DNA from: Oscillatoriales cyanobacterium
GTDB taxonomy: Bacteria; Cyanobacteriota; Cyanobacteriia; Cyanobacteriales; Laspinemataceae
Direction of reading: 5' to 3'
Assembly: GCA_011390955.1 (NCBI GenBank)
Contig: JAABRM010000016.1
Location: forward strand, 1-64,000
DNA length: 64,000 nt
The notes beneath the pieces were generated by a model. That model was not told where the DNA came from and made no database searches. It saw only the letters and a list, made by a program, of their open reading frames with translations. Of this stretch, positions 17,318 to 41,835 are shown one piece after another (the first letter of the stretch is position 1; the number at the start of each line of letters is the position of its first letter). Made by a program: the position numbers and the translations under genes.

Positions 17318-17938
17318 ATGACAGACCCAGGAATTTTGCAAAACCGTGACTACACCCTGATTATTGACAAAAGCGGGAGTATGTCGATCCAGGATCAACC
17401 GGGTGGCAGAAGTCGATGGCAAGAGGCTCAGGAGTCTACTTTGGCATTGGCGGCTAAATGTGAAGAGTTCGATCCCGATGGGATTACGGTTTATGTCTTT
17501 GCCAGACGCTTTAAGCGGTATGACAATGTGACGGCGAGTAAAGTGACTCAAGTTTTCCAGGAAAATGACCCGATGGGATCTACGGATCTCGCGGCGGTGC
17601 TGCAAGATGCGGTGGATAACTATTTTGCGCGGAAAGCAGCCGGTGAAGCTAAAGCTCATGGGGAAACGATCTTAGCGATCACAGATGGAGAACCGGACGA
17701 TCGCAAAGCGGTGATGGAAGTGATTATTAAGGCATCTCGAAAGATCGATCGAGATGATGAACTAACGATGTCTTTTATTCAGGTTGGCAAAGATCCACAA
17801 GCGAAGCGATTTCTCAAAGCTTTGGATGATGAACTCCAAAGTGTTGGGGCAAAGTTTGACATTGTGGATACGGTGACAATTGATGATATGGAAGATATGA
17901 CTCTGGCAGAGGTCTTGCTCAATGCCATTATTGACTAG
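17318..17938 (+). CDS. VWA-domain protein, copy 1
   Basis: 206 residues made almost entirely of one von Willebrand factor A domain. A full MIDAS metal site is visible: DKSGSMS (D17, S19, S21), the Thr in MGSTDLA, and the Asp in AITDGEPDD. No signal peptide or membrane segment is seen, so it is probably cytoplasmic. The sequence resembles TerY-type stand-alone VWA proteins, but no tellurium-resistance, MoxR ATPase or kinase partner is adjacent. The next gene, 15 nt downstream, is a close paralogue. Function unknown; a metal-dependent protein-binding role is the family expectation. Confidence 0.88.
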   Translation: MTDPGILQNRDYTLIIDKSGSMSIQDQPGGRSRWQEAQESTLALAAKCEEFDPDGITVYVFARRFKRYDNVTASKVTQVFQENDPMGSTDLAAVLQDAVDNYFARKAAGEAKAHGETILAITDGEPDDRKAVMEVIIKASRKIDRDDELTMSFIQVGKDPQAKRFLKALDDELQSVGAKFDIVDTVTIDDMEDMTLAEVLLNAIID

Positions 17939-17953
17939 GAGAATTGATCTAAT

Positions 17954-18571
17954 ATGGAGGCAAGTATTTTGCAAAATCGTGACTATACCCTGATTATTGA
18001 TAAAAGCGGCAGTATGTCGATTCCCGATCGACGGGGTGGTCGGACTCGGTGGGAAGAAGCCCAAGAGTCTACTTTGGCAGTGGCGAGAAAATGCGAACAG
18101 TTTGATCCCGATGGGATTACGGTTTATGTGTTTTCTGGTCGATTTACCAGATATGACAATGTGAATTCGAGTACCGTGGCGCAGATTTTCATGGAAAATG
18201 AGCCAATGGGTCACACCGATCTGGCTGGAGTGCTCGAAGATGCGCTGAATAATTACTTTCACCGCAAAGCCCAAGGCCAAACTAAACCCGAAGGTGAAAC
18301 CATTTTAGTGGTGACTGATGGAGAACCGGATGACCGGAAGGCAGTGATCCGGGTGATTGTGGAAGCGTCTCGGAAAATCGATCGGGATGAAGAATTGGCG
18401 ATTTCTATGATTCAAGTAGGCAATGATGCCCAAGCGACTCGTTTTCTGAAAGCTTTAGATGACGATCTCCAAGGAATTGGCGCCAAGTTTGACATTGTGG
18501 ATACGGTGACGATTGATGATATGGAGAATATGACTCTGGCTGAGATGTTGCTGAGTGCGATCGCTGATTAA
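17954..18571 (+). CDS. VWA-domain protein, copy 2
   Basis: 205 residues, colinear and highly similar to the preceding gene (shared blocks LQNRDYTLIIDKSGSMSI, FDPDGITVYVF, VTDGEPDDRKAV, GAKFDIVDTVTIDDM). MIDAS residues D16, S18, S20, the Thr of GHTDLAG and the Asp of VTDGEPDD are intact. AGGAG just upstream overlaps the end of copy 1, so the two form a bicistronic unit. The pair is a recent tandem duplication; differences concentrate on surface stretches such as QDQPGGRSR versus PDRRGGRTR. Confidence 0.88.
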   Translation: MEASILQNRDYTLIIDKSGSMSIPDRRGGRTRWEEAQESTLAVARKCEQFDPDGITVYVFSGRFTRYDNVNSSTVAQIFMENEPMGHTDLAGVLEDALNNYFHRKAQGQTKPEGETILVVTDGEPDDRKAVIRVIVEASRKIDRDEELAISMIQVGNDAQATRFLKALDDDLQGIGAKFDIVDTVTIDDMENMTLAEMLLSAIAD

Positions 18572-20653: not shown

Positions 20654-23395
20654 TCACAACCAATTACCGATCAGGACGAAAGGTGCCCAGAAAAAAGGGT
20701 GTTCAAATTGACTATTTTTTAAGATGGCAATTTGGGCTTGACGCAATGCTTGGGCTTTGTTGACTTCTGAGGTGGCGATCGCTCGGTAAAATTCACTCAT
20801 TAACTCTACTGTTGATTCGTCTGACACTGACCACAGGGTGGCTAAGGTACTCCGGGCACCAGAGCGCACGGCAACTCCGGCTAAACCTAAAGCCGCTCGG
20901 TTGTCACCCAAAGCGGTTTGACAAGCACTCAAGACTAATAATTCAATTTGAGAACCCTGACGATCTGAAGTTGGTGTGAGTAATTCATATAATTCTTGGA
21001 CGTTAATTTTACCATCCCAGGCGAGGAGAAAGGTTTGTTCTGGGTTGGAACTAAATTGCCCATGAGTGGCTAAATGCACTATCGGGAAGTGCGATCTATT
21101 TATTCTGGATTTCAAGTTAACTTTGGTGAAGTTTTGATTCAAGATGATTTCCCCGGCCACTTTTGCGGCAATTTGCTCTATTTCTAATTGGACTCCTGGT
21201 AGGGCGGTGAAATTTTGACGAGCTTCGCTGAGTCCAGCGGATAAGACCTGGAGTTTTTCTTGTCGGAGCGATCGCGGGGAGAGTAATTGCAAACCGGGGG
21301 CGACGGCAATGGTATATTTTTCGATTAAATACTCTTGACCATCATAAAGAGCAGCCATAGGCATGTTCTGCAGGAAACCATCCAGGACAAAAACTAAAGT
21401 TTTGATTTCATTGGCGGCTAAGTCCGCAGTAGCAGGTTGAATTAACCAGTTATATATTTGTTGAGAAATCCGCAGTCGCTCCGCGTTGTCATAGACTGGA
21501 TTGAGGGACATTAGCCAGTGTTTCAGTATATTTTCTACTCGATCTGCGGGTATATGGGTTTCGTAGTAACGGAACCGTTGACCGGGCAAGGAAAGGATTA
21601 CCCCTAAGCGATCGGGTAAAGTAATCGGATAGATGACCGCAGCGGTGGGATCGACTCGATCGATTTGTTCGGGAAAGAATTCTACACAGCTATTCCGAAA
21701 AAAGTTATCTAGTTCTGCGAGGTTTAATGCTTCGATGATTTCCCTGGCTTGTTGGAGATTTTTTTCGGGATGCGTGCGGATATTTTCTGGGTAATTCCGC
21801 CCATCTAACGTACCCGGTTGAGTTGCAGTATAGTCAGTATTTGTTAATAGCAATGCGACCAGTTCTCGATAGATCGGTTCGACGGTATCTTGAAAGGAAA
21901 ATTGCAGTTCAGAACCCGCTGCTACCAGTTCGTTGCGGAGAGATTTTAGGGTTTGAAATGCTGCGGTATAAGCGGCGATCGCTTGTGGGATATTTCCTTG
22001 TTGTTTGTGAATTCTGCCTAGTTGCCATTGAGCCAGGGCGATAATATCCTGCGCCTGAATTTTTTCTGCTTGAATAATTGCTTGCTCAGTCAGTTGACTG
22101 GCATCTGCCCATTGGGCTGCTTGTTCGTAAACAGATCCTAATTGCTTCAAAGCATAACATTCGGCTCGGATATCTTCCAGGTTTCTCGCCCCTTGCACCG
22201 CTTGCGCCAAAATTAAGGCAATTTCTTTCAGGTTAATTAATTGGCTTTGGTTGTGGATATGTGTTCGAGATGCTTGAGAATTTTTGGCTTGAATTTGAAA
22301 TATTTTGACTAATTTATTGGCAAAGTTTACTTGGGCATAAATTGAGAAGCGACTCAACGGTAAGCCGATGATAAGCGATTCTATGTGGGGAATTAAAGCG
22401 ATCGCTTCTGGCAATTTTTCGGTTTCAATGAATAAGCTGAGTTGATTGAGTTGGGCTTCTATTTGACCGATTGGGGTAGAGGCGATGGTGGCAGCTTGTT
22501 GATAATATTTTTGGGCAACTTCTGGCTGTTTTAAGGCTCTGGATGTGTTGCCTAAAGCAGTTAATGTAGCACTGATTTCACCGGCGTTGTGAACCTGATG
22601 GGGGTTAAGTTGTTGGGATATGGCTAAACTGGTTTCTAATGCTTGTTGCGATCGCTCCAAGTCACCCATAATATATAAAGAAATGCCAAAACTGCGTAAG
22701 CCTAGGGCTTTAATTGGCGATGCTGGCATCTGGGCTAATGTTTCCTCGATCTGGGTTAAAATTTGCTGCGATCGCCGATACATTCCTAGCTGTTGTAAAG
22801 CCTGGGCTTGGTTAATTTTACTGCCTAAAATTCCTTCTATGTCACTGATTTGACTATAGAGTTTTTCCCCTTGTTGCCAAGTTTCTAACGCGGCGGCATT
22901 GTCACCCATATCTAACTGAATATGTCCCCAAATGTTTAATAATTGGGCTTCAACTTTGAGGCTTTCATTAGTCGTTCGATCCAGGTTATTTAGGAGGTGG
23001 CGGCTGGTAAATATTGCCTGTTGTGCTTCTTCCCACTGGCCTAATTCTTGATAAATATTGGCCAGATAGACGCCGATTAATGCTTGACCAAGAAAATCGC
23101 GATCGCTTTGATAAATTTCGGCGGCTGACTGCCAAGTGGCGATCGCTTCTCGATACTGTCCAGCTTCATATAGTCTCTTGCCTCTGGTTAATAACTCAGC
23201 GGGATTGATTTCAGCGATTACGGAATTTTTTATATCGGTTGGTGCGGCCTGTTTTTGCCCGTTTTTGAAGTTCTGGCTAGGAAATGAGTAAGAAACCTGC
23301 GGATATTGAGTAATTTGACAAGTTATTATCAGAGATAATAGAACATAAATAAATCTCTTTTTTAGCTTTTTGAAATATTTAGTCAACCGATTCAT
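20654..23395 (-). CDS. TPR-CHAT protease-like protein, exported or membrane-anchored
   Basis: 913 residues. A basic N-terminus and hydrophobic stretch (FIYVLLSLIITCQITQY) suggest a signal peptide or anchor. Residues ~60-500 are tetratricopeptide repeats (for example AGQYREAIATWQSAAEIY and GDLERSQQALETSLAIS). The C-terminal third is a CHAT (caspase-HetF-associated) domain with the His/Cys dyad in VHLATHGQF (H778) and LSACQTALG (C825), and the usual ending HPFFWAPFVLIG. CHAT domains are clan CD cysteine peptidases, some acting in regulated proteolysis. The dyad is intact, so activity is plausible; substrate unknown. The adjacent DUF928 gene is read the same way but 550 nt away. Confidence 0.92.
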   Translation of the reverse strand: MNRLTKYFKKLKKRFIYVLLSLIITCQITQYPQVSYSFPSQNFKNGQKQAAPTDIKNSVIAEINPAELLTRGKRLYEAGQYREAIATWQSAAEIYQSDRDFLGQALIGVYLANIYQELGQWEEAQQAIFTSRHLLNNLDRTTNESLKVEAQLLNIWGHIQLDMGDNAAALETWQQGEKLYSQISDIEGILGSKINQAQALQQLGMYRRSQQILTQIEETLAQMPASPIKALGLRSFGISLYIMGDLERSQQALETSLAISQQLNPHQVHNAGEISATLTALGNTSRALKQPEVAQKYYQQAATIASTPIGQIEAQLNQLSLFIETEKLPEAIALIPHIESLIIGLPLSRFSIYAQVNFANKLVKIFQIQAKNSQASRTHIHNQSQLINLKEIALILAQAVQGARNLEDIRAECYALKQLGSVYEQAAQWADASQLTEQAIIQAEKIQAQDIIALAQWQLGRIHKQQGNIPQAIAAYTAAFQTLKSLRNELVAAGSELQFSFQDTVEPIYRELVALLLTNTDYTATQPGTLDGRNYPENIRTHPEKNLQQAREIIEALNLAELDNFFRNSCVEFFPEQIDRVDPTAAVIYPITLPDRLGVILSLPGQRFRYYETHIPADRVENILKHWLMSLNPVYDNAERLRISQQIYNWLIQPATADLAANEIKTLVFVLDGFLQNMPMAALYDGQEYLIEKYTIAVAPGLQLLSPRSLRQEKLQVLSAGLSEARQNFTALPGVQLEIEQIAAKVAGEIILNQNFTKVNLKSRINRSHFPIVHLATHGQFSSNPEQTFLLAWDGKINVQELYELLTPTSDRQGSQIELLVLSACQTALGDNRAALGLAGVAVRSGARSTLATLWSVSDESTVELMSEFYRAIATSEVNKAQALRQAQIAILKNSQFEHPFFWAPFVLIGNWL

Positions 23396-26782: not shown

Positions 26783-27160
26783 CGATTTTGTTCTTTGTTC
26801 TTTGTTCTTTGTTCTTTGTTCTTTGTTGTTTGTTGGTTGTTGGTTGTTGTTCGTTGTTCGTTGTTGGTTGTTGTTCGTTGTTTGTTGCCCTTCGGCTTCG
26901 CGGTAGTTGAGCCTGTCGAAACTCAGGGCAAGATTGTTGTTCGTTGTTTGTTGGTTGTTGGGTAGGGATTCTTTCGTTGTTGGGTAGGGATTCTTTGGTT
27001 GTTGTTTGTCAACCATCAACAAACAACCATCAACAAACAACCATCAACAAACAACCATCAACAAACAACCATCAACCATCAACCATCAACAAACAACCAT
27101 CAACAAACAACCATCAACAAACAACCATCAACAAACAACCATCAACAAACAACCATTTCT
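26783..27160. repeat. Heptanucleotide repeat array inside the TCA-bypass gene pair
   Basis: The left part is T/G-rich (TTCTTTG, GTTGTTT, GTTGTTC), then come a short GCCCTTCGGCTTCGCGG-type segment (26887-26932) and two GGGTAGGGATTCT copies (~26960 and ~26982). At ~27008 polarity flips to (CAACCAT CAACAAA)n to 27154. The 14-bp alternation of two heptads is very regular. Putative ORFs rich in NNHQQTT are repeat translations. Confidence 0.9.
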
Positions 27161-28528
27161 TTATTTGATCCAAACGGTTTTGACATTCACAAATTCGTGA
27201 ATGCCTTGAATGCTGAGTTCTCGTCCGTACCCAGAACGCTTAATCCCACCAAAGGGCAAGCGAGGGTCGGATTTGACTAAGCCATTGATGAAGACTGCAC
27301 CGGCTTCTAGTTCTTTGATGAAGCGATCGCGTTCTGTGGCATGATTCGTCCACGCACTTGCCCCTAAGCCAAAACAAGTGCTGTTGGCAAGGGCGATCGC
27401 TTCATCAATTCCTTTGACCCGGAATAGCAATGCCACTGGGCCAAAAAATTCTTCCGTATATCCAGGGCAACCGGGGGGTAAGTCCGCTAGTAAAGTCGGG
27501 GCATAAAAGTTACCGGGGAGATCGCGCAACCGCTGACCCCCAGCGACAACCCGGGCGCCCTGAGAGACGCAAGCTTTAACCAGGTCATCGATTTCTTGTA
27601 AAATATCTGGAGTAGCGAGCGGCCCAATGTCTGTTTGTGGATCCATTGGGTCGCCTACCCGCAAGGCTTGAATTTTTTCGCCCATGCGTTGCTCAAATTC
27701 ATCGGCGATCGCTTCTGCCACAATAAAGCGTTTTGCCGCAATACAAGATTGGCCATTATTAATCATTCGGGCTGTCACCGCTGCGATCGCAGCGACTTCT
27801 ATATCCGCACTTTCTAGAACAATAAACGGATCGCTCCCTCCTAATTCTAGGACTGTTTTCTTAATTTGCTTGCCACAATTGGCCGCTAAAGATGCCCCAG
27901 CAAATTCGCTGCCGGTTAAAGTCGCTGCTTGCACCCGGTCATCTTCGACAATTTTGGCGACTTGACTGGCCCCAATTAATAAGGTTTGAAATACCCCTTC
28001 AGGAAAACCCGCTTTGTCCACAATTTCTTGAATGGCTAAGGCGCATTGTGGCACATTAGAAGCGTGCTTCAGAATCCCCACATTTCCCGCCATTAAAGCG
28101 GGGGCAAGAAACCGAAACACTTGCCAGAAAGGAAAATTCCACGGCATCACCGCGAGAATAATTCCTAAAGGATCGTAAGCCACAAAGCTTTGGGCTGCAT
28201 CAGTCGCGATCGGCACATTAGCTAAAAATTCTGGGGCTTTTTCCGCATAAAAACGGCAAACTAAAGCACATTTTTCCACTTCTGCCACGGCAGATTTGAA
28301 AGTTTTGCCCATTTCCAGGGTCATCATGGCCGCAAATTCTGATTTGCGCTGTTCTAAAATATCCGCCGCTGCATTCATCCATTGGGCTTTTTGTTCAAAG
28401 GGCAGATGCCGATATTGTTTATAAGCCCTTTCTGCCGCCACCAGTTTCGCTTCTATTTCAGCGTCCGTTAGCGGTACAAACGTTTTAATCGTCTCTCCAG
28501 TTGCCGGGTTAATCGTAGCGATACCCAT
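27161..28528 (-). CDS. NAD(P)-dependent succinic semialdehyde dehydrogenase
   Basis: 455 residues, aldehyde dehydrogenase superfamily. NAD-binding/active-site elements are PWNFPFWQVFRFLAPALMAG, the general-base Glu in VLELGGSDPF (E228) and the nucleophile Cys in NNGQSCIAAKRF (C262). The start MGIATINPATGE and the length match the SSADH branch found beside 2-oxoglutarate decarboxylase in cyanobacteria. It oxidises succinic semialdehyde to succinate, step two of the cyanobacterial TCA bypass. Substrate is assigned from context plus family. Confidence 0.88.
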   Translation of the reverse strand: MGIATINPATGETIKTFVPLTDAEIEAKLVAAERAYKQYRHLPFEQKAQWMNAAADILEQRKSEFAAMMTLEMGKTFKSAVAEVEKCALVCRFYAEKAPEFLANVPIATDAAQSFVAYDPLGIILAVMPWNFPFWQVFRFLAPALMAGNVGILKHASNVPQCALAIQEIVDKAGFPEGVFQTLLIGASQVAKIVEDDRVQAATLTGSEFAGASLAANCGKQIKKTVLELGGSDPFIVLESADIEVAAIAAVTARMINNGQSCIAAKRFIVAEAIADEFEQRMGEKIQALRVGDPMDPQTDIGPLATPDILQEIDDLVKACVSQGARVVAGGQRLRDLPGNFYAPTLLADLPPGCPGYTEEFFGPVALLFRVKGIDEAIALANSTCFGLGASAWTNHATERDRFIKELEAGAVFINGLVKSDPRLPFGGIKRSGYGRELSIQGIHEFVNVKTVWIK

Positions 28529-30673: not shown

Positions 30674-32803
30674 ATGACTAATATCGATCGAATTATTCAA
30701 CAAGAACCCAATCCATTTGATGCCGAAACTTTTTGGTCGGGGAATTTTTGGCAAGAAGACCAAAATCCTGAGTTTGTGGTGGAGTCAATCCATCAAGAGG
30801 CAATTAAGGCGATCGGGCAAACCCTGGATCTGATTTCCCAAGATCACCGTACTCGGACGCTAATGCTGGAAGGAGAAACTGGATCGGGGAAGACTTATTT
30901 GTTGGGACGGCTGAAAAGTTTGCTAAACCGCAAAGCCTTTTTTGTCTATATTGAACCTTTCACCGCGAGTGATTATATTTGGCGACATATTTTACGTTAT
31001 ACCGTTGATAGTTTATTAAAAGTTCCGGCAGGAGAACAAGATTCTCAGTTAATTTTATGGCTGAAAGGTTTGTGGGGTTTTAAACAGAGAGGCTTGTTAG
31101 ATTGGTTGCGCGGGGAACGGCTTATGGTGATTAAGAATCTCCGGGCAATTTACTCAGCGGGAATTTACAATGCTAATGAATTTTTTGGGGTTTTGTATGA
31201 TTTAACTAATCCCAAATTAAAGGATTTAGCTTGTGAGTGGTTGCGCGGGGATGATTTGGATGAAGATCGGTTAAAATCTTTGCACGTTCAACATTCCATT
31301 GATACGGAAGATGCTGCCCAAAAAATTCTGGCAAATTTTGGCCGCATTGCCGCTGAAAGTAAGCCGATTGTGCTCTGTTTTGACCAAATTGATAATATTG
31401 CCCGCTTGAGTGATGGCACCATTGATTTACAAAGTTTGTTTAGCGTGAATTCCGTAATTCACAATCAAAAGCTGAAAAATTTTCTGGTAATTATTAGTAT
31501 TATTACGGATACTTGGCGACAAAATGCCCACCGCATCCAACCGACGGATAAAGACCGCATTGATGCTACGATTGTGTTGAAAAAAATTAATTTATATGAA
31601 GCAGAAACTTTATGGAAAAGTCGCCTAAATCGGATCTATCGTCAGGCAAATCCTCGGCCAGTTTCTTCTATTTATCCGTTGAGTAGAGATGTCTTGGAAA
31701 TTAAATTTCCCGGTGGCAAAACTCGTCCGCGAAATACGCTGATGTTGGGTCGGAAGTTATTTCAAGATTATAAAGTCAGTTTAGTAGAAAATGGCCATGC
31801 TGTTTCCAGGCAAAACTCGGAGGCAGAGGCAGAAACTTTAGAACCTTTGGAAATTTTGCAGGCGGAGTTAATTGTTGATGACTCTCGTTCTTGGACCGAG
31901 ATAACTTTAGATTCTTTGGCAGATGAAGCGGATGCCCAAGGGGATAAAAATGGCTCAAATTTAGCGACTACGGCAGCGTTTAAGTTGGTTTGGTTGCGGA
32001 AGTTTAAGCAAACGGTCGATCGCATTTCTCGGATTCGCCAATATTCTTCCCCAGAATTAATTACTATGTTGGCTGAGGCGATCGCGGCAATTCAACCCGT
32101 AGAAATTAAACCCCGTTTTCTATCTTCAAGTCGGACTTATGCCAGTTATTCCATGAGTTATCAATTACCGGGTAAATCAACCCAGTTCGGGGTGGTTTGG
32201 TCGGAAGATTTGAATCTGGTGAAATTTTGCAATTTGATGAAGGTCTGCCAAGAGGCGATCGCGGAAAATCTCTGTCAAAAGTTCTATTTAATTCGCTCGG
32301 AAAGCGTGGGAAATCCCTCTAACCAAGGTTATCAACTGCACCAGAAACTATTTAGCCAGCCCCAGCATATCCATATTATTCCCGATCTGAATTCGGTTCA
32401 CTATTTAGTGACTTATCATGGGTTAGTTAATGATGCGATCGCTGGGGAATTAGTCATCGGAGATACCACCCCAAATCTGGCTGAGTTAGAATCCTTAATC
32501 CGCGAGTCAAATATTTTAGCTGATTGCCAATTATTACAAGACTTAGGCATGATTTCTGTCATTCCTGTGGCTGCGGATCCTGATAATTTGCTCAATGTCC
32601 AAGAATTTATTCTGAATCGATTAATGACTCAGCAGTGTATTGCCCGTCAGCGGTTAATCGAAGAATCCCGCAGTCAATTTAGCCCCGCGAGTGAGTCCCA
32701 AGTCCAATCAATTATCGACCGTTTATGCCAAGAAAACGAAAAAATTAGCATTTTAGACCCTAATGCCAAAATTGAAGAGCAATTAATTTATTTTGCAAAA
32801 TAA
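30674..32803 (+). CDS. Large P-loop ATPase, paralogue 1 of 3
   Basis: 709 residues. A short N-terminal lead (IDRIIQQEPNPFDAETFWSG) precedes an AAA-like domain: Walker A GETGSGKT (67-74), then FVYIEPFTASDYIWRHILR, and Walker B IVLCFDQID (232-240) with Gln where Glu is usual. A long alpha/beta C-terminal region includes FKLVWLRKFKQTVDRISRIR and SVHYLVTYHGLVNDAIAGEL. The overall shape recalls ORC/STAND-like ATPases that use a fused partner domain. Two full-length paralogues follow (32971-35034, 37141-39174). I do not recognise a named family. It probably works as an oligomeric ATPase on nucleic acid or protein; this is inference. Confidence 0.88.
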   Translation: MTNIDRIIQQEPNPFDAETFWSGNFWQEDQNPEFVVESIHQEAIKAIGQTLDLISQDHRTRTLMLEGETGSGKTYLLGRLKSLLNRKAFFVYIEPFTASDYIWRHILRYTVDSLLKVPAGEQDSQLILWLKGLWGFKQRGLLDWLRGERLMVIKNLRAIYSAGIYNANEFFGVLYDLTNPKLKDLACEWLRGDDLDEDRLKSLHVQHSIDTEDAAQKILANFGRIAAESKPIVLCFDQIDNIARLSDGTIDLQSLFSVNSVIHNQKLKNFLVIISIITDTWRQNAHRIQPTDKDRIDATIVLKKINLYEAETLWKSRLNRIYRQANPRPVSSIYPLSRDVLEIKFPGGKTRPRNTLMLGRKLFQDYKVSLVENGHAVSRQNSEAEAETLEPLEILQAELIVDDSRSWTEITLDSLADEADAQGDKNGSNLATTAAFKLVWLRKFKQTVDRISRIRQYSSPELITMLAEAIAAIQPVEIKPRFLSSSRTYASYSMSYQLPGKSTQFGVVWSEDLNLVKFCNLMKVCQEAIAENLCQKFYLIRSESVGNPSNQGYQLHQKLFSQPQHIHIIPDLNSVHYLVTYHGLVNDAIAGELVIGDTTPNLAELESLIRESNILADCQLLQDLGMISVIPVAADPDNLLNVQEFILNRLMTQQCIARQRLIEESRSQFSPASESQVQSIIDRLCQENEKISILDPNAKIEEQLIYFAK

Positions 32804-32809
32804 ATTAAT

Positions 32810-32940
32810 TTGTTGGTTGTTGGTTGTTGGTTGTTGGTTGTTGGTTGTTGGTTGTTGTTTGTTGTTTGTTGTTTGTTGTTTGTTGTTTGTTTTGGCCTAG
32901 GTCGCCAGAACAACAAATAACTAATAACCAATAACCAAGA
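32810..32940. repeat. Heptanucleotide repeat array between ATPase genes 1 and 2
   Basis: Six TTGGTTG units and four TTGTTTG units on the left, a GGCCTAGG palindrome around 32894, then A/C-rich ACAACAAATAACTAATAACC units to 32940. It has the same T/G-to-A/C polarity flip as the other arrays. It interrupts an otherwise tight gene series. Confidence 0.85.
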
Positions 32941-32970
32941 ACAAAATATAATCAAATGAGGTAATATTCT

Positions 32971-35034
32971 GTGACATCTATGGCATCTATCCAGCAAATT
33001 ATTCAGCAAACGTTAAACCCGTTTGACTCGACAACTTTTCGCCCTGGAAATTTCTGGCAAGAACAGCAAGAAACGGATTTAACTGTAGATTCTATTCATC
33101 AAGATGTGGTGCAGGAAATTGAAGATTTATTGCAACAAGTTAATCAGGATCGTCGTACCCGAACTTTGTTATTAGCCGGTGATTCTGGGGCTGGCAAAAG
33201 TTATTTGTTAGGGCGAATTAAAGAACGGTTAAATTCTCAGGCGTTTTTTGCTTATATTGGCCCGTGGCCCGAAAGTGATTTTATTTGGCGGCATATTTTA
33301 CGCAATACGGTAGATAGTTTGATGTATGTGCCAACCGGAGAAAAATCATCTCAATTACTGCTTTGGATTAAGAGTTTATCGGCTTTTCACTCGGAAGGGT
33401 TTATGAAACGCTTTTTGGGTGAAAGGCAGTTGTTTATCCATAATCTAAAAGGTCAGTTTCCTTCGGGAATTTATAATCCTAACGAGTTTTTTGGGGTTCT
33501 CTATGATTTGCATAATCCAGATTTGTATCCGATCGCCTGTGAATGGTTGAAGGGCGATCGCTTAGATGAAGAAAGTCTCAAACTGTTGCGGGTAAAAAAT
33601 GCTATTGATACGGAAAACGCTGCCCGGAATATTTTAGGTAATTTGGGCAAAATTGCGGCGGTGACTCAGCCGATTGTTTTATGTTTTGATAATTTAGATA
33701 ATATTGACCGGGCTTTAGATGGATTTATTAATTTACAGGCTTTGTTTAGCGTTAATTCTATCCTGCATAATGAAAAGCTGAAAAACTTTTTCGTGATTAT
33801 CAGTGTGGTTACGAATACTTGGAAGCAGCATCAAAAGCGGGTACAAGGGGCGGATATTGCCCGAATCGATCGAGAAATTCGCCTGCAACCGATTAGTTTA
33901 GATCAAGCAGAAGCATTATGGGCAACCCGACTTTACCCCCTACATCAACAAGCAGAAATTCAGCCGCGATCGCGCATTTATCCCCTGTCTCGCGATGCCC
34001 TAAATTTTAAGTTTCCTGGGGGCAAAACCAAGCCCCGTTATGTGTTGATGTTGGGACGACAGCTTTTTCAAGAAGCCAAACAAGTGGGACTCGATGACTT
34101 TCATCAATCCCAACAAGAAAAGTACCAAAAATATGCGGTTCATATTAGCAGACCCGATCCTTTAGCGGCGTTTAAATTACTCTGGCTGAAAGAATTTAAG
34201 CAAACCGAGCACAAAATTAGCCGAATTCGTCAGTTTTCCGCCCCGGAATTGATCAAAATGCTGCGAGAAGCTTTGGCAGCTTTGCAGGTAATTGGCATTG
34301 AAGCGAAACTATTGCCTAGTCCCAAGTATGCTAGTTATTCTTTAAGCTACCATTTGCCGGTACAAATTGGCCGAATTGGGTTAGTTTGGACAGAAGATCC
34401 GAATTTAGTGGGGTTTTTTCATTTGATGAAAGCTTGTGAAAAAGCTTTGCTGATGGAACGGTGTAAAACTCTATTTTTGGTTCGGGCTGAAAATTTGGGG
34501 ACGCGGAAAAATCAAGGCAATCAATTATATAGTAAAATTTTTACCGGATATCCCCATCGTCATTTATTACCGGATATGCTTTCGGTGCATTATTTAGCGA
34601 CTTATCATAATTTGGTGAATGCCGCTTGTGCTGGTGAGTTGGTGTTAGGCGATCGCACTCCTAATTTAAAAGAGTTACAAGAGGTAATCCGCGAGTCCAA
34701 TATTTTACAAGATTGTCCTTTGTTGGATGCTTTGGGGATTTTTGCCGGTTATACTCGGATTATTGGGGTGACTGGAACTCCCCAGAAAAAGCTGTCTGCC
34801 GGTCAGGATATGACCCAAGAGTTGCCAAAGGTAAAAGGTTATTTGTTGGCTTTAATGCAAACTCAGCAAATGATGGGGCGTTATGTTTTGATGCAAAATA
34901 CTTTGGATCAGTTTACTGATGTTGATGATGTGGTGGTTAATCAGTTAATTACTGAACTTTGTCAGGAGGAAAAAATTATGATTCTGGATGAAACGGCGCC
35001 GGTACATTCTCAGTTATTATGTTTGTTGAATTAA
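32971..35034 (+). CDS. Large P-loop ATPase, paralogue 2 of 3
   Basis: 687 residues, aligning end to end with the gene before it. N-terminal IQQIIQQTLNPFDSTTFRPG, Walker A GDSGAGKS (70-77), FAYIGPWPESDFIWRHILRN, Walker B IVLCFDNLDN with Asn after the Asp. C-terminal SVHYLATYHNLVNAACAGEL is shared by all three paralogues. I keep the GTG start at 32971 because GAGGT lies eight nt upstream; an ATG three codons later (32980) is possible. It is followed after 64 nt by a small gene of the same island. Function unknown. Confidence 0.87.
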   Translation: MTSMASIQQIIQQTLNPFDSTTFRPGNFWQEQQETDLTVDSIHQDVVQEIEDLLQQVNQDRRTRTLLLAGDSGAGKSYLLGRIKERLNSQAFFAYIGPWPESDFIWRHILRNTVDSLMYVPTGEKSSQLLLWIKSLSAFHSEGFMKRFLGERQLFIHNLKGQFPSGIYNPNEFFGVLYDLHNPDLYPIACEWLKGDRLDEESLKLLRVKNAIDTENAARNILGNLGKIAAVTQPIVLCFDNLDNIDRALDGFINLQALFSVNSILHNEKLKNFFVIISVVTNTWKQHQKRVQGADIARIDREIRLQPISLDQAEALWATRLYPLHQQAEIQPRSRIYPLSRDALNFKFPGGKTKPRYVLMLGRQLFQEAKQVGLDDFHQSQQEKYQKYAVHISRPDPLAAFKLLWLKEFKQTEHKISRIRQFSAPELIKMLREALAALQVIGIEAKLLPSPKYASYSLSYHLPVQIGRIGLVWTEDPNLVGFFHLMKACEKALLMERCKTLFLVRAENLGTRKNQGNQLYSKIFTGYPHRHLLPDMLSVHYLATYHNLVNAACAGELVLGDRTPNLKELQEVIRESNILQDCPLLDALGIFAGYTRIIGVTGTPQKKLSAGQDMTQELPKVKGYLLALMQTQQMMGRYVLMQNTLDQFTDVDDVVVNQLITELCQEEKIMILDETAPVHSQLLCLLN

Positions 35035-35098
35035 GCTGGATAACCGATTGGCAATGGATATGTTGGACATTTGATTTGATGAGTTTTAAATAAAAGCA

Positions 35099-36103
35099 AT
35101 GGATTCTAAAGCCTTGAAATTTATGTTAAGTTTATTGAGTTTTCCCAATTATCGGGCGCCGATTAGTCATGTGAAACCGACCCCGAAAATTAAGGCAGCG
35201 GAAAGAAATCATCTTTGCCAAGAACTGCGCGATCGCGAGTGGGTAGCTTGTTCGGAAAAAATTAAAACTTTGAAAATTTCAGCCCAAGGGAAAGCTTTGC
35301 TAAAACTGGGTGAAGTTGAGGGTGGTTTGACTCCAGAAGAATTCCAGGTATTACAAGGAATTTCTGCGGGTAAAAGTTCTCCTAATAAAATAGATTTGCC
35401 TGAAAGCGATCTCCTGAATATAACTGAGATAATTGAACATTTAGCCCGTCGTGAATTATTAGTTCTGGAAAAAGAAATAGATGAAGTTTGGTTAACGGAA
35501 AAAGGTCAAAAGTTTTTAATCGAAGATTACGATCCAACTGACCAGTCGGGGACTATTACTTTTAGTCTGTTAGCCGATTATTTGCGTCTAGTTCGGCAAT
35601 TTTCTCCACCAACTGCCCCTGGGGTCATAAATACCCCAAGGGATGTCAGTGAAAATCATTTACCGCCATCAAAGCTAATCAATCAATCAGCCACTTTTTC
35701 AATTAATGAACTGGATATTTTACAAACCATTCGCCAATTAGATATTCACTTAGGGGCGTTAAAAAATATGCCCACAGATATGCCCACAGATATCTCACCG
35801 AGGCTACCCAGTGATGAGGATATTTTACAACTGATTTTACAGTTAGATCGAGAGTTGGGTACAGAAAATTATTTGCCAATTTTTCATGTTCGGGAACAGT
35901 TAAAAGATTTATTCATCCGGGAAGAATTAGACCAAGTTTTATATCGCCTGCAAGCCAATCAGCAAATTCAACTAAAATCCTTAGAGGAGGTGATCCATTA
36001 CAGTCCAGAATATTTTGAAGCGGCAATTCCTCAAGAAAAAGCATGGTCATTATTTTTTATTGTCAGAAATTATCCCGAAATCTCTGGAGAAAATCAGGGT
36101 TGA
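35099..36103 (+). CDS. Island protein with winged-helix-like segments, paralogue 1 of 2
   Basis: 334 residues. N-terminal block MDSKALKFMLSLLSFPNYRA, then ERNHLCQELRDREWVACSEK with a beta-hairpin-like tail; a second similar unit ends KEIDEVWLTEKGQKFLIED; a third at the C-terminus is LGTENYLPIFHVREQL, DQVLYRLQANQQIQLKSL. The pattern (helices, then a short basic or hydrophobic hairpin) suggests three winged-helix modules, so nucleic-acid binding is plausible. The middle (residues ~175-240) is a variable linker containing a duplicated MPTD. It has a clear paralogue 133 nt downstream. Not assignable to a named family. Confidence 0.8.
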   Translation: MDSKALKFMLSLLSFPNYRAPISHVKPTPKIKAAERNHLCQELRDREWVACSEKIKTLKISAQGKALLKLGEVEGGLTPEEFQVLQGISAGKSSPNKIDLPESDLLNITEIIEHLARRELLVLEKEIDEVWLTEKGQKFLIEDYDPTDQSGTITFSLLADYLRLVRQFSPPTAPGVINTPRDVSENHLPPSKLINQSATFSINELDILQTIRQLDIHLGALKNMPTDMPTDISPRLPSDEDILQLILQLDRELGTENYLPIFHVREQLKDLFIREELDQVLYRLQANQQIQLKSLEEVIHYSPEYFEAAIPQEKAWSLFFIVRNYPEISGENQG

Positions 36104-36236
36104 ACATGAGGATGACAGCAAGGGTTTGATTAATTTTGATTAAAAAATGTTTAATTTTGAAAAAAAATGTGGCAATTGCCCCAATTTGAGCGATCGTATT
36201 ATAAAATACTAATAAATAAAGATGAGGTAAGAGACA

Positions 36237-37091
36237 ATGGATGCTAAAGAACTGAAGTTTCTGTTAAAGCTATTGAGTTTTGCTAATTACCGTGCTCCGC
36301 TGAGTCAAATTCAACCAACCCCGAAAATGCGATCGCCTGAACGAAATAGCATTTGTCGAGAACTACGCGATCGCGATTTAGTAGCTTGTCGGGAACAAAT
36401 TAAAAATTTGACTATTGCCCCTCCAGGCAAATCTTTGCTCAAAATTGACCCCACCAATTTGCCGGTGACTCCCGAAGAAATTAAAGTGCTGCAAGCAAGT
36501 AGTAAAGGCACTATTTCTCCGGGAAAAGTTGGCCTTCCTGCGGCTAATCGCGAAACCGTAATTGAGGGTTTAGCTAATCGCGGGTTTATTGCAGTCGAAA
36601 AAGAAATTAAAGAAGTTTGGTTAACCCCCAGAGGTGAGCAATTTTTAGTTGAAGAGTATCAGTCTAATAGCAGTTCGGCGAATATTACTTTAAAAATGCT
36701 GACGGATTATTTGCGTTTGATGCGAAAATTCCCGGTAAATTCTGCATATATTGCCACACCGAACCAGGCAATTTCATCGACAGTCGCAGCGGCAGATATT
36801 ACAGCAGAAAAATCTCTAGGTAAACCAAGCGATACACAGATTTTGCAAATGATCGGCGATTTAGATCGGAAACTGGGAACAGAGAATTATTTGCCAATTT
36901 TTCACTTGTGGGAAAAATTAAAAGCTTCTATGTCTAAGGATGAGTTCGATCGCGCCCTTTATCGCTTGCAACGGGAAGATAAAATAGAACTAAGTTCTTT
37001 ACAAGAAGGTATGAATTATACATCAGAGCAAATTGCCGCTGGAATTCATTTGGAATTGGGGGGCTATTTATTTTTTATCATCCTCAATTAA
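36237..37091 (+). CDS. Island protein with winged-helix-like segments, paralogue 2 of 2
   Basis: 284 residues, colinear with the preceding gene but with a shorter linker: MDAKELKFLLKLLSFANYRA, ERNSICRELRDRDLVACREQ, KEIKEVWLTPRGEQFLVEEY, and C-terminal LGTENYLPIFHLWEKLKASM with LYRLQREDKIELSSLQEGM ending LFFIILN. A GATGAGGT ribosome-binding site precedes the ATG. The third ATPase gene starts 49 nt downstream. The duplication mirrors the triplication of the ATPases, suggesting that the two components co-evolved. Function unknown. Confidence 0.8.
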   Translation: MDAKELKFLLKLLSFANYRAPLSQIQPTPKMRSPERNSICRELRDRDLVACREQIKNLTIAPPGKSLLKIDPTNLPVTPEEIKVLQASSKGTISPGKVGLPAANRETVIEGLANRGFIAVEKEIKEVWLTPRGEQFLVEEYQSNSSSANITLKMLTDYLRLMRKFPVNSAYIATPNQAISSTVAAADITAEKSLGKPSDTQILQMIGDLDRKLGTENYLPIFHLWEKLKASMSKDEFDRALYRLQREDKIELSSLQEGMNYTSEQIAAGIHLELGGYLFFIILN

Positions 37092-37140
37092 CGATGCGTA
37101 TTTGAACAAATTTTATCAATTTTTTAGGTGGAGTTAAGTT

Positions 37141-39174
37141 ATGGCAACTATTGATGCGATTATTCAACAAGAAGTGAATCCGTTCGATCCAGTTACTTTT
37201 TATACGGGTGATTTTTGGCAAGAATCACAACAGTCTGGATTGACGGTAGATTCAATTCATCAAGAGGCGATCGCAGAAATTACCGAATTACTGAACCAAG
37301 TCGCTAAAGATCATCAAACTCGCAGTATTTTATTATGTGGCGATCGCGGTTCGGGGAAAAGTTATCTGTTATCTCGACTCAAACAGCAACTTAATCAATC
37401 GGCTTTTTTTGCCTATATTGGTCCGTGGGTAGAACAGGGGCAAATTTGGCGACATATTCTCCGTTATACCGTGGATAGTTTAATGCAAAAGCCTGCTGGA
37501 GAAACCGAGTCCCAGTTATTGTTATGGTTAAAGAGTTTATCCGCATTTCGCGATCGGGGACTGAAAAAGAAAATCCTGGGGGAACGGGGTTTATTTATTC
37601 ATAACTTGCGGGGAACTTACCCGTCAGGAATTTATAACCCGAATGAATTTTTTGGTGCCCTGTATGATTTAACCAATCCTGACTTATATAATACCGTATG
37701 TGATTGGTTGCAGGGAAATGATTTAGATGAGGAAAGCTTAAAAGAGATTAGAGTTAAACGGTCAATTGAGACTGAAACCGATGCCAAAAATATTTTAAGC
37801 AATTTTGGCAAAATTTCCGCAAATACTCAGCCCATTGTCCTCTGTTTTGACCAGATCGACAAAGTGGCAGAACCTCCCAGTGGCTATCAAGAACTTCAAG
37901 CATTATTTACCGTCAATACTACCATCCATAATCAAAGGCTGAAAAACTTTTTCATTATTATTAGTCTGATTAAAAATACCTGGGAACAACATAAAAAAAA
38001 TATTCTAGAAGCGGATCAAGACCGGATATATAAAGGTATTTTGATCAAATCAATTACCTGGGATCAAGCAGAAAGCCTCTGGGCAAAACGTCTCGATCCG
38101 ATTCATCAACAAGCCACAGAAAAACCCCCTTCACCCATTTACCCTTTAACTCGACAAGAATTGGAAGCAAAATTTCCGGCAGGGAGAACATTTCCTCGCT
38201 ATGCCCTACAAATTGCCCGCCAACTCTATCAGAATTATAAGTTAAATTTGGCTGTTGATTTAAAGGCAAGTTCACAACCAGAAACACCGCAGCCAACAGA
38301 AACACCCCTAGACGCGATCGCTGCTTTTAATTTGCTTTGGCAGAGTCAATTCAAAAAAACTCAGGAAAAATTTCTGAAAATTCGGCATTTTGCTAATTCA
38401 GAATTGATCCAAATGTTACGGGAAGCCCTGCAAGCTTTGGAAGTAGCGGAAATTCAACCGCGACTGTTACCCAGTGACAAATATGGCAATGCTTCGCTGA
38501 GTTGTCAGTTGCCGGAAGTTTCTGGAAAAGTGGGGTTTGCTTGGACAGAAGATGAAAATTTGACCAATTTTTTCCACTTTATGAATGCTTGCCAGAAAAC
38601 AATTGACCAGAATCTTTGCCAAAAGCTATATCTGATCCGAAAAACCGGGGTGGGAAATGCCCGCAATAAAGGCTACACCCTTTACAAGCAGATTTTTACC
38701 GAGATGCCTCATGTGCATATTATTCCCTCCCTAGAATCGGTGCATTATTTGGCTACCTATCACAGTTTAGTTAATGCGGCTGCGGCTGGGGAATTAGTGG
38801 TGGGCGATCGCACTCCGAATATTTCTGAACTCCAAAGTATTGTGCGCGAAGCTAAAATATTGCCTGATTGCCAATTATTACAAGACTTAGGAATTTTTGG
38901 CCAAAATAAAAGCAAGCCATCAAACTTGGTGAACCCCGAAGCCAAACAATTACTCAAAGCCAAAAAATATATGTTGAGTTTAGTAGAAACTCAGCAACTT
39001 TTGGGGCGGTCTATTTTAGAAAATAATACGATCGTTTTTGATACGCGGCTGACGCAGGAAAATATCGATCGACTAATTGATGAGTTGGTGGCAGAGAAAA
39101 AGGTTCAGATTTCCGATCCGGGGACAAACCGGGCAAATCAATTTATTTTTTGGGTGCCTAAATCTGCCGTATAG
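37141..39174 (+). CDS. Large P-loop ATPase, paralogue 3 of 3
   Basis: 677 residues, colinear with paralogues 1 and 2. IDAIIQQEVNPFDPVTFYTG, Walker A GDRGSGKS (67-74), FAYIGPWVEQGQIWRHILRY, Walker B IVLCFDQIDKV. Residues ~380-395 carry a Pro/Thr-rich linker (SQPETPQPTETPL) before the C-terminal half. AGGTGGAG precedes the ATG. A strong terminator-like hairpin follows the stop at 39181-39236. Function unknown; see the island finding. Confidence 0.87.
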   Translation: MATIDAIIQQEVNPFDPVTFYTGDFWQESQQSGLTVDSIHQEAIAEITELLNQVAKDHQTRSILLCGDRGSGKSYLLSRLKQQLNQSAFFAYIGPWVEQGQIWRHILRYTVDSLMQKPAGETESQLLLWLKSLSAFRDRGLKKKILGERGLFIHNLRGTYPSGIYNPNEFFGALYDLTNPDLYNTVCDWLQGNDLDEESLKEIRVKRSIETETDAKNILSNFGKISANTQPIVLCFDQIDKVAEPPSGYQELQALFTVNTTIHNQRLKNFFIIISLIKNTWEQHKKNILEADQDRIYKGILIKSITWDQAESLWAKRLDPIHQQATEKPPSPIYPLTRQELEAKFPAGRTFPRYALQIARQLYQNYKLNLAVDLKASSQPETPQPTETPLDAIAAFNLLWQSQFKKTQEKFLKIRHFANSELIQMLREALQALEVAEIQPRLLPSDKYGNASLSCQLPEVSGKVGFAWTEDENLTNFFHFMNACQKTIDQNLCQKLYLIRKTGVGNARNKGYTLYKQIFTEMPHVHIIPSLESVHYLATYHSLVNAAAAGELVVGDRTPNISELQSIVREAKILPDCQLLQDLGIFGQNKSKPSNLVNPEAKQLLKAKKYMLSLVETQQLLGRSILENNTIVFDTRLTQENIDRLIDELVAEKKVQISDPGTNRANQFIFWVPKSAV

Positions 39175-39180
39175 AGATAA

Positions 39181-39236
39181 AAAAACCGGGGTCTTTGAAC
39201 TTAATTTAAATTAGATTAATTTAAAACCCGGTTTTT
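39181..39236 (+). terminator. Terminator-like hairpin after the third ATPase gene
   Basis: AAAAACCGGG (39181-39190) pairs perfectly with CCCGGTTTTT (39227-39236), and the internal TTAATTTAAATTAGATTAATTTAA can form a second stem. The run of T at the right arm gives an intrinsic-terminator shape; the A-run on the left makes it potentially bidirectional. It separates the ATPase/winged-helix genes from the nuclease-translocase gene. Confidence 0.7.
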
Positions 39237-39279
39237 GCTGAATGTTTAAACGTAAATAATCAATCATTTTTTTCGACTA

Positions 39280-41835
39280 ATGGTTTATTGGCAAAATCCC
39301 CAAGATATTCAACAGTTGATTAGGGAATTAACCCACTCAAAAATTATCTGGGCTGATACAGAAGTGGCTGATTGGCAGACACAGAAACCCCGACTATCTT
39401 TGATTCAAGTATTGAGCGATCGCCAGAAGTTGACTGGAAAAACTGGATATATCCTGGATGTATTGGATCGACCATATTTGCTGACATATTTTATTCAGCA
39501 AATTATGGTAAATCAGAGAATTGAAAAGGTGTTTCATAATGCCAGCTATGATTTAAGATTCTTGGGCAAATCCCAAGCCAAGAATGTCACTTGTACTTTA
39601 AAAATGGCGAAACAAATTGGCCGCGATCGCCTAGGAGTGACCAATTTAAAACTCAAAACTTTAGCCGCCGAACTGTGCCATTTTGCCGATATTCACCCCG
39701 AATCACAAACTAGCGACTGGGGTCAGCGTCCCCTGAGTCAAGCACAATTAAATTATGCTAAAATGGATGTGGTTTATCTGTCGCAAGTTCATCAGTATTT
39801 ACTGCATAAATTGGAACCAGAACATCCGCATTATCAGGATAACTTTATGCCTCAAGAAAAATCAGCAAGATCGACGGCTTTGACTGCCACAGATTTAAGA
39901 GTTGCCTTTGAATGTCCTCGGTTATTTTACTTGGGTCAGCGGTTTGGAGGAATGACCCTATTTTTCCCCCCCAATGAAATGGGAGGTATTGGCAACCCTT
40001 TTCACGACTTAGCGAAAAAATTTACTCTTTTAATTCAGGAAAACCCTCGATTTAAAGATGGTTTAAATTTGCCCATTGACCAGATTAACCCCGAAACTGT
40101 GGCGCTTCAGATGCAGCAGATTTTTTATGAGTTGGTCTTTTTGCCCTATCTGCAAAGTGCGATCGCCCAAGAACCGAAAAAAATCGCCACATTAAATCAA
40201 ATTTGGCAAGGATTACAAGGACTAATTCGTCGTTATGCGGAAATTTTAGTGGCAAATCGACGTGATTATTCTGCTGAAGAGGTGATTAATAAAACTTTTC
40301 TGGGTCAAGAATTAACGATTCACCATTGGTTTGATTTACCAGATGGGAAAAAGCAACTGGTTAGAGGACAATTAGATAGTTTAATTTTGAAGCGCGATCG
40401 CCTCTGTGTGGTAGAATATAAAACTTATGAAGCAGCAGATTTAACGGCGCAATTAGCCCAAGTTGCCTTATACAGTTATATGCTATTCCAAGAGAAAAAA
40501 CAGCCGGTAGACTCGGCGGTTTATTGCGTTTTGCCAGAATTTAAAGAATTGCTGTTTTCTTGGGAAGAACTAGCAGAAAAATTTCATCAGCTTATTCCCC
40601 ATAAGTTAGCCCAAATGCAGCAATGGTTAACCTGGGAACCGCCACAACCCAATCCCCCACCTCCGACCCCTCAGCCGCAACTTTGTGAGATTTGTTCTCA
40701 GCGGAATAAATGTCAAAGTTTTTTTGCCGAAAATTCCGCCCAACCTCCCCGTCAAAAGGTGAACTATTCCCCCCAACCCGATGGCGTTCAAAAGGGAGGG
40801 CTAGAGGAAAATATTGCCCAACAATTAATCGAAACCTTGGCATCTTTTAAAATAAACGTCGATTATTTAGGGGCGGCGGTAGGGCCAGCATTTATTAGAG
40901 TAAAACTGAAACCGCATCTGGGGGTAAAAGTGGCTGGTTTAATCAAATTATCCGCTGATTTACAAGTGCAATTGGGGATTAATTTTCCTCCGATGATATC
41001 CCCACAAGCGGGTTATGTGAGCGTGGATTTGCCCCGCAGCGATCGCCAAGTAGCCCAGTTTGAAAGTTATATTCAACGGCAGCAAAATCCTATTGATGCG
41101 GCGGTAAAAATTGCCATTGGCATTGATTTAGATGGTCAGCTAATTGAAGCGGATTTATCTGACCCCAATACTTGTCATTTTTTGGTGGGGGGAACCACCG
41201 GCAGCGGCAAAAGTGAGTTTCTGCGATCGCTGTTATTATCTTTACTTTATCGCCATTCTCCCGATCGGTTAAAAATTGCTTTAGTTGACCCCAAACGGGT
41301 GACATTTCCCGAATTTGCCCAGATGCGGTGGCTATATGCTCCTGTAGTCAAAGACAGCGAAAATGCCATAGAGTTAATGACCGAATTAGTGGCGGAAATG
41401 GCATCGCGTTATCAGCGTTTTGAGGCTGCCGGTTGCGCTGATATTCACAGTTATAATCAGAAAAAACTAAATCAGTTGTTACCGCGAATAGTTTGTATTT
41501 TTGACGAATATGCTGACTTTATGGCTGAGAAAGAAACCCGCAGCGAATTAGAACTAAGTATTAAAAGATTAGGGGCAATGGCGAGAGCAGCGGGCATCCA
41601 TTTAATTATTGCCACTCAACGCCCAGAAGCCAAAGTTGTCACCCCAATTATTCGCTCAAATTTACCCGGACGAGTCGCCCTGCGGACTGCCAGTGAAGCA
41701 GATTCTATGATTATATTGGGCGGAAAACAAACGGCGGCGGCTTATTTATTAGGTAAAGGGGATTTACTCTATCAAGTAGGCGCACAATTGCAGCGATTAC
41801 AAAGTTTATTTTGCGCGATCGCTCCTCGGTTGTGA
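39280..41835 (+). CDS. RNase D-like exonuclease / PD-(D/E)XK Fe-S nuclease / FtsK-type motor fusion
   Basis: 851 residues with three modules. (1) Residues 1-180: DEDDy 3'-5' exonuclease with ADTEV (D26, E28), FHNASYD (D91) and YAKMD (Y159, D163). (2) About 200-480: PD-(D/E)XK nuclease of the RecB/Cas4/AddB sort, with AFECPRLFYLG (C212), GQLD (D366), VEYK (E379, K381), QVALY (Q394, Y398) and CEICSQRNKC (C469, C472, C478), a C...CxxCx5C set typical of a 4Fe-4S staple. A Pro-rich linker closes it. (3) About 510-851: FtsK/SpoIIIE motor with Walker A GTTGSGKS (638-645), Walker B VCIFDEYADFM (D742, E743) and the IATQRPEAKVVTPIIRSNLP signature. It has no FtsK transmembrane part or gamma DNA-reading domain. 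All catalytic residues look intact. It likely tracks along and degrades DNA; the role is inferred. Confidence 0.93.
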   Translation: MVYWQNPQDIQQLIRELTHSKIIWADTEVADWQTQKPRLSLIQVLSDRQKLTGKTGYILDVLDRPYLLTYFIQQIMVNQRIEKVFHNASYDLRFLGKSQAKNVTCTLKMAKQIGRDRLGVTNLKLKTLAAELCHFADIHPESQTSDWGQRPLSQAQLNYAKMDVVYLSQVHQYLLHKLEPEHPHYQDNFMPQEKSARSTALTATDLRVAFECPRLFYLGQRFGGMTLFFPPNEMGGIGNPFHDLAKKFTLLIQENPRFKDGLNLPIDQINPETVALQMQQIFYELVFLPYLQSAIAQEPKKIATLNQIWQGLQGLIRRYAEILVANRRDYSAEEVINKTFLGQELTIHHWFDLPDGKKQLVRGQLDSLILKRDRLCVVEYKTYEAADLTAQLAQVALYSYMLFQEKKQPVDSAVYCVLPEFKELLFSWEELAEKFHQLIPHKLAQMQQWLTWEPPQPNPPPPTPQPQLCEICSQRNKCQSFFAENSAQPPRQKVNYSPQPDGVQKGGLEENIAQQLIETLASFKINVDYLGAAVGPAFIRVKLKPHLGVKVAGLIKLSADLQVQLGINFPPMISPQAGYVSVDLPRSDRQVAQFESYIQRQQNPIDAAVKIAIGIDLDGQLIEADLSDPNTCHFLVGGTTGSGKSEFLRSLLLSLLYRHSPDRLKIALVDPKRVTFPEFAQMRWLYAPVVKDSENAIELMTELVAEMASRYQRFEAAGCADIHSYNQKKLNQLLPRIVCIFDEYADFMAEKETRSELELSIKRLGAMARAAGIHLIIATQRPEAKVVTPIIRSNLPGRVALRTASEADSMIILGGKQTAAAYLLGKGDLLYQVGAQLQRLQSLFCAIAPRL

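Follow-up and report, generated by a model that had tools for sequence, protein, structure and literature searches.

The six genes that lie together in the window, by which we mean the whole 64,000-nucleotide stretch of Oscillatoriales DNA analysed here, form two related modules (Table 1). One is a complete W2-A3-N module, in which a winged-helix-like protein (W) and an ORC/TnsC-type AAA+ ATPase (A) precede a protein with two nuclease domains and an FtsK-type motor (N); the other is a W-A-A type pair, A1-A2(-W1). We regard W-A-N as the working unit and W-A-A as a duplicated loader module without N, and we tentatively favour, with a probability of about 0.45, a role for W-A-N as a genome-maintenance machine that degrades DNA over a role in anti-phage or anti-plasmid defence. 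A nuclease-ParA fusion (HP), accompanied by a ParB-like gene (ParBR), has taken the place of N at one fixed locus of the chromosome, although the exclusion is not absolute. A literature search of titles and abstract openings found no published description of W-A-N or HP-ParBR.

Table 1. Features of the two modules and of the replacing gene pair (positions in the window unless a locus is named)
Feature	Position	Strand	Description
ATPase 1 (A1)	30674..32803	+	709 aa; ORC/TnsC-like AAA+ ATPase, alpha clade, first A of W-A-A modules; AAA_16/KAP-type P-loop (Pfam)
ATPase 2 (A2)	32971..35034	+	687 aa; ORC/TnsC-like AAA+, beta clade, second A of W-A-A modules; AAA_16 8e-9
Winged-helix protein 1 (W1)	35099..36103	+	334 aa; 44% identity to W2
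Winged-helix protein 2 (W2), W-A-N core	36237..37091	+	284 aa; AlphaFold model with MarR-type structural matches
ATPase 3 (A3), W-A-N core	37141..39174	+	677 aa; N-terminal ORC/Cdc6/TnsC/RdrA-like AAA+, then alpha/beta domain, then C-terminal part
Stem-loop then T-run, terminator-like, A3/N intergenic	39181..39236	+	-19.5 kcal/mol, z -3.58
N	39280..41835	+	851 aa; DEDDy 3'-5' exonuclease 5-179, Cas4/AddB-like PD-(D/E)XK nuclease 201-479, FtsK alpha + motor 510-782
HP-ParBR pair, example	L031:12048-14281 and homologues		

All six reading frames are where the sequence-only reading had placed them, on one strand (an ATG at 32980 is a possible alternative start for A2), and its two multiplied families are borne out by blastp, A1 to A3 sharing 47-54% identity over nearly their full length and W1 and W2 44%, far above chance. 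Its description of the sixth gene was likewise correct, Pfam finding DNA_pol_A_exo1, PDDEXK_1, FtsK_alpha and FtsK_SpoIIIE in N. What did not stand was the view of the six genes as a single system of three, two and one: the tree of A proteins and the locus maps give two modules, which rules out one unit. In the close relative Planktothricoides sp. SR001 (L033) the order A1-A2-W1-W2-A3 is kept up to the contig end, and N (93% identity) is on another contig. No further A or N was detected in the window's genome at the thresholds used, and one further W lies on contig C40. This lone third W (G000:C40:202480-203364; L098:8481-9374) lies beside X771 and GT416, two genes that also flank W-A-A at several loci of Oscillatoria, Laspinema and Microcoleus.

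In a tree of 90 A proteins, built by a quick method and containing several long branches, A1 falls inside the clade of first ATPases of W-A-A modules (alpha; 26 rows, SH-aLRT 100) and A2 inside that of the second ATPases (beta; 23 rows, SH-aLRT 99), while A3 groups with the ATPases of W-A-N. Because the latter are basal under midpoint rooting, we infer that W-A-N may be ancestral and W-A-A derived. Among the fetched loci W stands directly before A 64 times and N directly after A 28 times, with gaps down to overlaps, and A follows A 25 times. The genes are arranged as W-A-N or as W-A-A, and both arrangements are present at some loci (W-A-A-W-A-N in L039). N is unlinked, far from A, in three genomes (G046, G227 and G095). 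Scanning contigs with two short peptide patterns returned 36 loci, from cyanobacteria only.

The families also occur together. Of 244 cyanobacterial genomes, 31 have a strong match to A, 30 have W and 25 have full N, and each of these 25 carries both A and W (Fisher ~1e-28, counting genomes as independent of kinship). The counts for A, W, N and HP were compiled by hand from per-family searches. For A, 35 genomes matched at 1e-10 and four with weak partial matches were dropped (G040, G072, G119, G187); for W, two partial matches (G164, G209) were removed from 32; and for N, 25 of 54 were kept, those dropped being mainly standalone exonucleases, together with fragments (G024, G040), a 677-aa FtsK (G085) and SspH-type proteins (G004, G113). 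The three families are therefore not scattered and unlinked in cyanobacteria, so that the first of the outcomes which the earlier reading had named as counting against it did not occur, and N belongs to the W-A system, co-occurrence and adjacency to A ruling out an unrelated downstream gene. The terminator proposed between A3 and N proved to be a real hairpin, which none of 200 shuffles equalled in stability, and which is missing from a consensus terminator scan whose loop limit is 3-8; the suggestion that it leaves N a separate unit fell, since elsewhere N lies directly 3' of A and often overlaps it.

The ATPase assignment rests on both fold and residues. The AlphaFold model of A3 (42 sequences; pLDDT 88.2, pTM 0.89) aligns over about its first 390 residues, mainly 5-390, with Orc1 (Z 13.9, 4.6 A over 257 residues), RdrA (13.6) and TnsC (13.3), and by sequence the PDB returned weak P-loop matches only (best E 0.11). 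Across 90 A proteins the Walker A lysine is kept in 90, the Walker B aspartate in 89 and Arg353 in 90; the ATPase residues are kept in all three groups, the few departures falling in neither the alpha nor the beta clade, and the Walker and sensor residues persist in 22 or 23 of the 23 beta rows. A thus has an ORC/TnsC-type AAA+ fold (Z 13-14) with its ATPase residues. It shares with ORC/Cdc6, TnsC and RdrA the fold of this N-terminal part and differs from them by a long C-terminal region without an identified relative, for which the structure search gave no fold match. The order of elements in the C-terminal model (helix, three strands, helix, strand) may resemble a restriction-endonuclease-like fold lacking the catalytic ExK.

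The winged-helix guess for W had a mixed outcome. Pfam gave no significant match for W1 or W2 and Foldseek none for the W2 model at E <= 0.001, but the predicted structure of W2 (37 sequences; mean pLDDT 88.8, pTM 0.56) aligns to MarR-type winged helices with Z up to 11.3 (2.3 A over 73 residues). These matches cover one unit only, model residues 1-144, and the whole model looks like three winged-helix units.

N retains its active sites throughout. In 34 aligned N proteins the Walker residues and the four cysteines of the PD-(D/E)XK domain (201-479) are kept in all 34 and the PD-(D/E)XK residues in 33-34; the exonuclease domain is present in 24, with its acidic residues kept and N87 replaced by S in two of these. 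That ten proteins lack the exonuclease and 24 keep its residues suggests that the PD-(D/E)XK-FtsK pair is the core of N, the DEDDy exonuclease having probably been added or lost. The motor scores 132 bits against FtsK_SpoIIIE (PF01580; 2.8e-38) and 18.1 bits against DUF87 (0.003; below the cut-off of 23.2), and is as near to E. coli FtsK (33% identity, 166 bits) as to the SspH of locus L109 (33%, 178 bits); in an FtsK-domain tree the outgroups were unresolved, on very long branches. FtsK_SpoIIIE was matched at 1e-10 in 35 of the 244 genomes, including the 25 with N, and 21 of these 25 have no other match. A second such protein (1036 aa, contig C105) occurs in the window's genome, and three other N genomes also have a second one. 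Plasmid-type FtsK proteins of about 680-725 aa were seen in L121 (Trichormus plasmid C) and L106, a few genes from an annotated terminase large subunit and near the DISARM gene drmD.

No named system matches, in agreement with the sequence-only reading. The closest in outline is SspFGH, which the cited part of its description gives as three genes, for a Walker-A ATPase, a second protein and a large protein with an FtsK-like C-terminus (PMC8092258). W-A-N has the same three-gene outline, but profile comparisons with the proteins of locus L108 gave a probability of 2.6, over the P-loop only, for A against SspF (hhalign, 42 A proteins) and 0.2 for W against SspG (37 W proteins), and N has 851 aa and two nuclease domains against 1773-1815 aa for the SspH proteins found here. 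PADLOC reported SspH (218 bits) and mad8 (98 bits) for the motor of N, no SspF, and nothing for W1 or W2; with FtsK scoring alike and SspF and SspG failing to match, the SspH hit does not identify an Ssp system. Phosphorothioate modification genes (sspBCD) were found neither among 36 of the 44 recurrent neighbour clusters (Pfam) nor among the 25 listed of 94 PADLOC families. Actual SspFGH modules occur in two cyanobacteria (L108:6279-15432 and L109:1455-12762), followed, by eye, by cysteine-desulfurase-like genes; the L109 module has a PglW/kinase-like region preceding SspF in one fused protein.

For BREX, BrxC/D (PF10923) reached 20.3 bits with A1, below the cut-off of 22.2, and is not listed for A2 or A3. 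FtsK/SpoIIIE shares with N the alpha and motor domains with their Walker motifs, whereas N has nucleases at its N-terminus, an AAA+ ATPase and a winged-helix protein as partner genes, and no gamma (KOPS-binding) domain among its Pfam matches. HerA-NurA and RecBCD/AddAB resemble N in coupling a DNA motor to a nuclease, and the nuclease of N matches Cas4 and presumably resembles the AddB type; its motor, however, is of the FtsK rather than the HerA kind and Pfam shows no NurA, nor is it a RecB/AddA helicase, and W-A-N has extra loader proteins.

HP consists of an HSDR_N-like domain (PF13588; 21.5 bits, below the cut-off of 25) fused to ParA, and ParBR of a ParB_N domain (27.3 bits, cut-off 26.3) with a Rho_N tail. 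HP was found in 40 of the 244 genomes, 35 of them within the order and 26 of those full length (in G089 and G229 the match starts only at about residue 170, although the frames have 458 aa); the window's genome gave no match, and the pair was not seen in the window. Among the 76 genomes of the order that were listed, a lower bound for the order, full N occurs in 25, full HP in 26 and both in none (Fisher 2e-6 by genomes), while G115 has N with a partial, ParA-only HP match containing a stop. Counted by genus, N is present in 15 of 43, HP in 17 and both in one, in different species (p 0.001). Within genus g11, N occurs without HP in 14 of 16 genomes and HP without full N in the remaining two (G066, G121), and in family f6, which we guess to be Nostocaceae, N or HP is present in 25 of the 28 genomes listed. 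Many cyanobacteria have neither.

Recurrent neighbours of the modules include a 294-aa ParA (ParA294), glycosyltransferases and HP with ParBR. At one locus ParA294 lies across genomes on one side and f241-f159-f126 on the other, and between these constant flanks stand W-A-N in L076-type genomes, A with HP-ParBR in L094, and HP-ParBR alone in L112. Remnants of N adjoin the pair, residues 1-177 beside ParBR in L087 and residues 670-865 (L105) or 687-865 (L117) beside HP; as either half of N can be left, HP-ParBR sits where the middle of N was. A remnant with two stops likewise lies next to HP in Baaleninema (G264). Among 19 other genomes picked for carrying A (from 20 loci chosen among the 36, with L056 left out), five have both N and HP, eight N only, four HP only, one HP with an N remnant, and one neither (G260), the last by genome search, yet its locus L042 holds an HP-like gene. 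Since full HP and full N never meet in the 244 genomes, HP-ParBR as a general partner of W-A is ruled out.

The surroundings of the modules were sampled through 150 of 238 non-redundant neighbour proteins, with those above 1000 aa dropped, later loci under-sampled and raw counts taken without a control set. At least one neighbour matches each of 94 PADLOC families, and none of the 25 families listed matches more than three; the commonest Pfam family is Uma2, 'putative restriction endonuclease' (5 of 150). Pfam showed no DNA-modification gene among 36 of the 44 recurrent clusters (one representative each), and two of six further clusters scanned with PADLOC only match candidate defence families. 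The neighbourhood is thus no clear defence island and consists mostly of ordinary neighbours.

Mobile elements rarely carry the module. A was confirmed on no viral contig and found in no phage record, and among 72,556 plasmid records a single one matches A, and likewise W. The same plasmid is the only one, among the best 15 of 808 records matching N, whose match reaches the PD-(D/E)XK nuclease; so many plasmid matches to the motor, in many bacteria, are expected of FtsK-type proteins, and the best after the Pseudanabaena copy are FtsK proteins from large plasmids, among them those of Nostoc, Tolypothrix and Trichormus, at about 40% over the motor. One module copy is carried by a conjugative Pseudanabaena plasmid (L107).

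Relative to Planktothricoides SR001, A1, A2, W1 and W2 have dN/dS of 0.13-0.30, indicating purifying selection (A1: 92% identity, 0.13; the A3 row compares paralogues and was set aside), and W has 0.29-0.30 against 0.06-0.10 in three flanking genes, 3-5 times as much. W1 shares 69% identity with the Planktothricoides copy (dN/dS 0.30, dS 0.54) and A1, A2 and W2 89-95% (dS 0.20-0.28); to judge from these divergences W1 has possibly been recombined or exchanged. RecC was found in 28 of the 244 genomes, mostly of family f25, and none of the 28 has N or HP.

From the parts of W-A-N a mechanism can be proposed. A and W would assemble on DNA, at a site or a structure, and load N, presumably an FtsK-type pump for double-stranded DNA, which would feed DNA to its own PD-(D/E)XK nuclease, the DEDDy 3'-5' exonuclease also degrading the pumped DNA in most members. 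The target under genome maintenance would be broken, unresolved or septum-trapped chromosome in cyanobacteria without detectable RecC and rarely with another FtsK-type protein, and the nuclease-ParA fusion with the ParB-like gene could take the place of the system. Chromosomal synteny with constant flanks, the near constancy of N or HP in g11 and f6, mostly ordinary neighbours and an all but complete lack of copies on plasmids, in phages and on viral contigs all argue for this reading. The lack of RecC in any N or HP genome gives weak support, because it follows whole clades, and the usual absence of another FtsK-type match in N genomes is to be set beside the four, the window's own included, that have a second one. 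The reading also has to accommodate the many cyanobacteria with neither N nor HP, the genomes in which N coexists with full or partial HP, the elevated dN/dS of W, and the decay and movement of the locus, as is common among conflict genes; the same replacement pattern would be expected if alternative immune or restriction cassettes shared one locus. A wider version, in which W-A-N and HP-ParBR are unrelated DNA machines that do the same maintenance job in filamentous cyanobacteria, one displacing the other in the same slot and supplying an FtsK- or RecBCD-like function where RecC is missing, seems to us somewhat doubtful. Still less likely is the notion that HP-ParBR has inserted as a selfish element, breaking N without having any function in common with it, so that exclusion is gene disruption; the N halves adjoining the pair in L087, L105 and L117 would be expected of such an element, which is compatible with each of the functions proposed for W-A-N, but full-length HP is kept in genomes of many families that lack N and coexists with N in five of the 19 genomes above.

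Immunity against phages or plasmids, the role put forward from the sequence at the outset, is a possible and less favoured reading, in which W-A would recognise foreign DNA and N shred it, by analogy with DndFGH or SspFGH, with HP-ParBR as another immune cassette occupying the shared locus. As no modification gene was found travelling along, recognition would then be by topology, ends or replication state. The SspFGH-like composition (PMC8092258, in the part cited), RdrA among the fold matches of A, the swapping and decay of cassettes at one locus, the conjugative plasmid copy, the fast-evolving W, the Uma2 neighbours and the two candidate defence clusters are all consistent with it, as are the PADLOC scores of the motor, except that the SspH score is unspecific, E. 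coli FtsK being equally near. The scanned neighbours, with their scarcity of recurrent PADLOC families among those listed and their lack of modification genes in the 36 clusters, lend it no support, nor do the fixed chromosomal synteny and the near-constant retention of N or its replacement, most evident in g11. If the role is defence, W-A-N would pair a loader with a shredder, no modification partner having come to light. DNA partition, in which N would be a soluble FtsK, HP-ParBR a ParA/ParB system, both would move copies of the chromosome or of plasmids, and the nucleases would trim catenated DNA, we consider improbable: ParA294, the ParA of HP and the ParB_N domain of ParBR do meet at one locus, and cyanobacteria are described, in the part of the source cited, as having no classical ParABS, and Anabaena as the only one in which an FtsK homologue has been identified (PMC7766704), yet Pfam finds no gamma domain in N, and a pure segregator needs no nucleases, of which N has two with kept active sites. 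Genome maintenance remains our preferred reading. In the part cited, recBCD is reported as frequently absent from larger cyanobacterial genomes (PMC5101192), and W-A-N and its replacement provide concrete genes for the question of how such cyanobacteria process broken or unresolved DNA, as well as a natural swap that is testable by complementation.

Several other features of the window were noted by eye. Minisatellite repeats of the TTGTTGG/CAACAAC type lie between A1 and A2 (32804-32960) and recur elsewhere, at 26999-27280, and a large TPR-CHAT-like protein is encoded at 20654-23395. Two tandem von Willebrand A-type genes, which we presume to be TerY-like, lie at 17318-17938 and 17954-18571.
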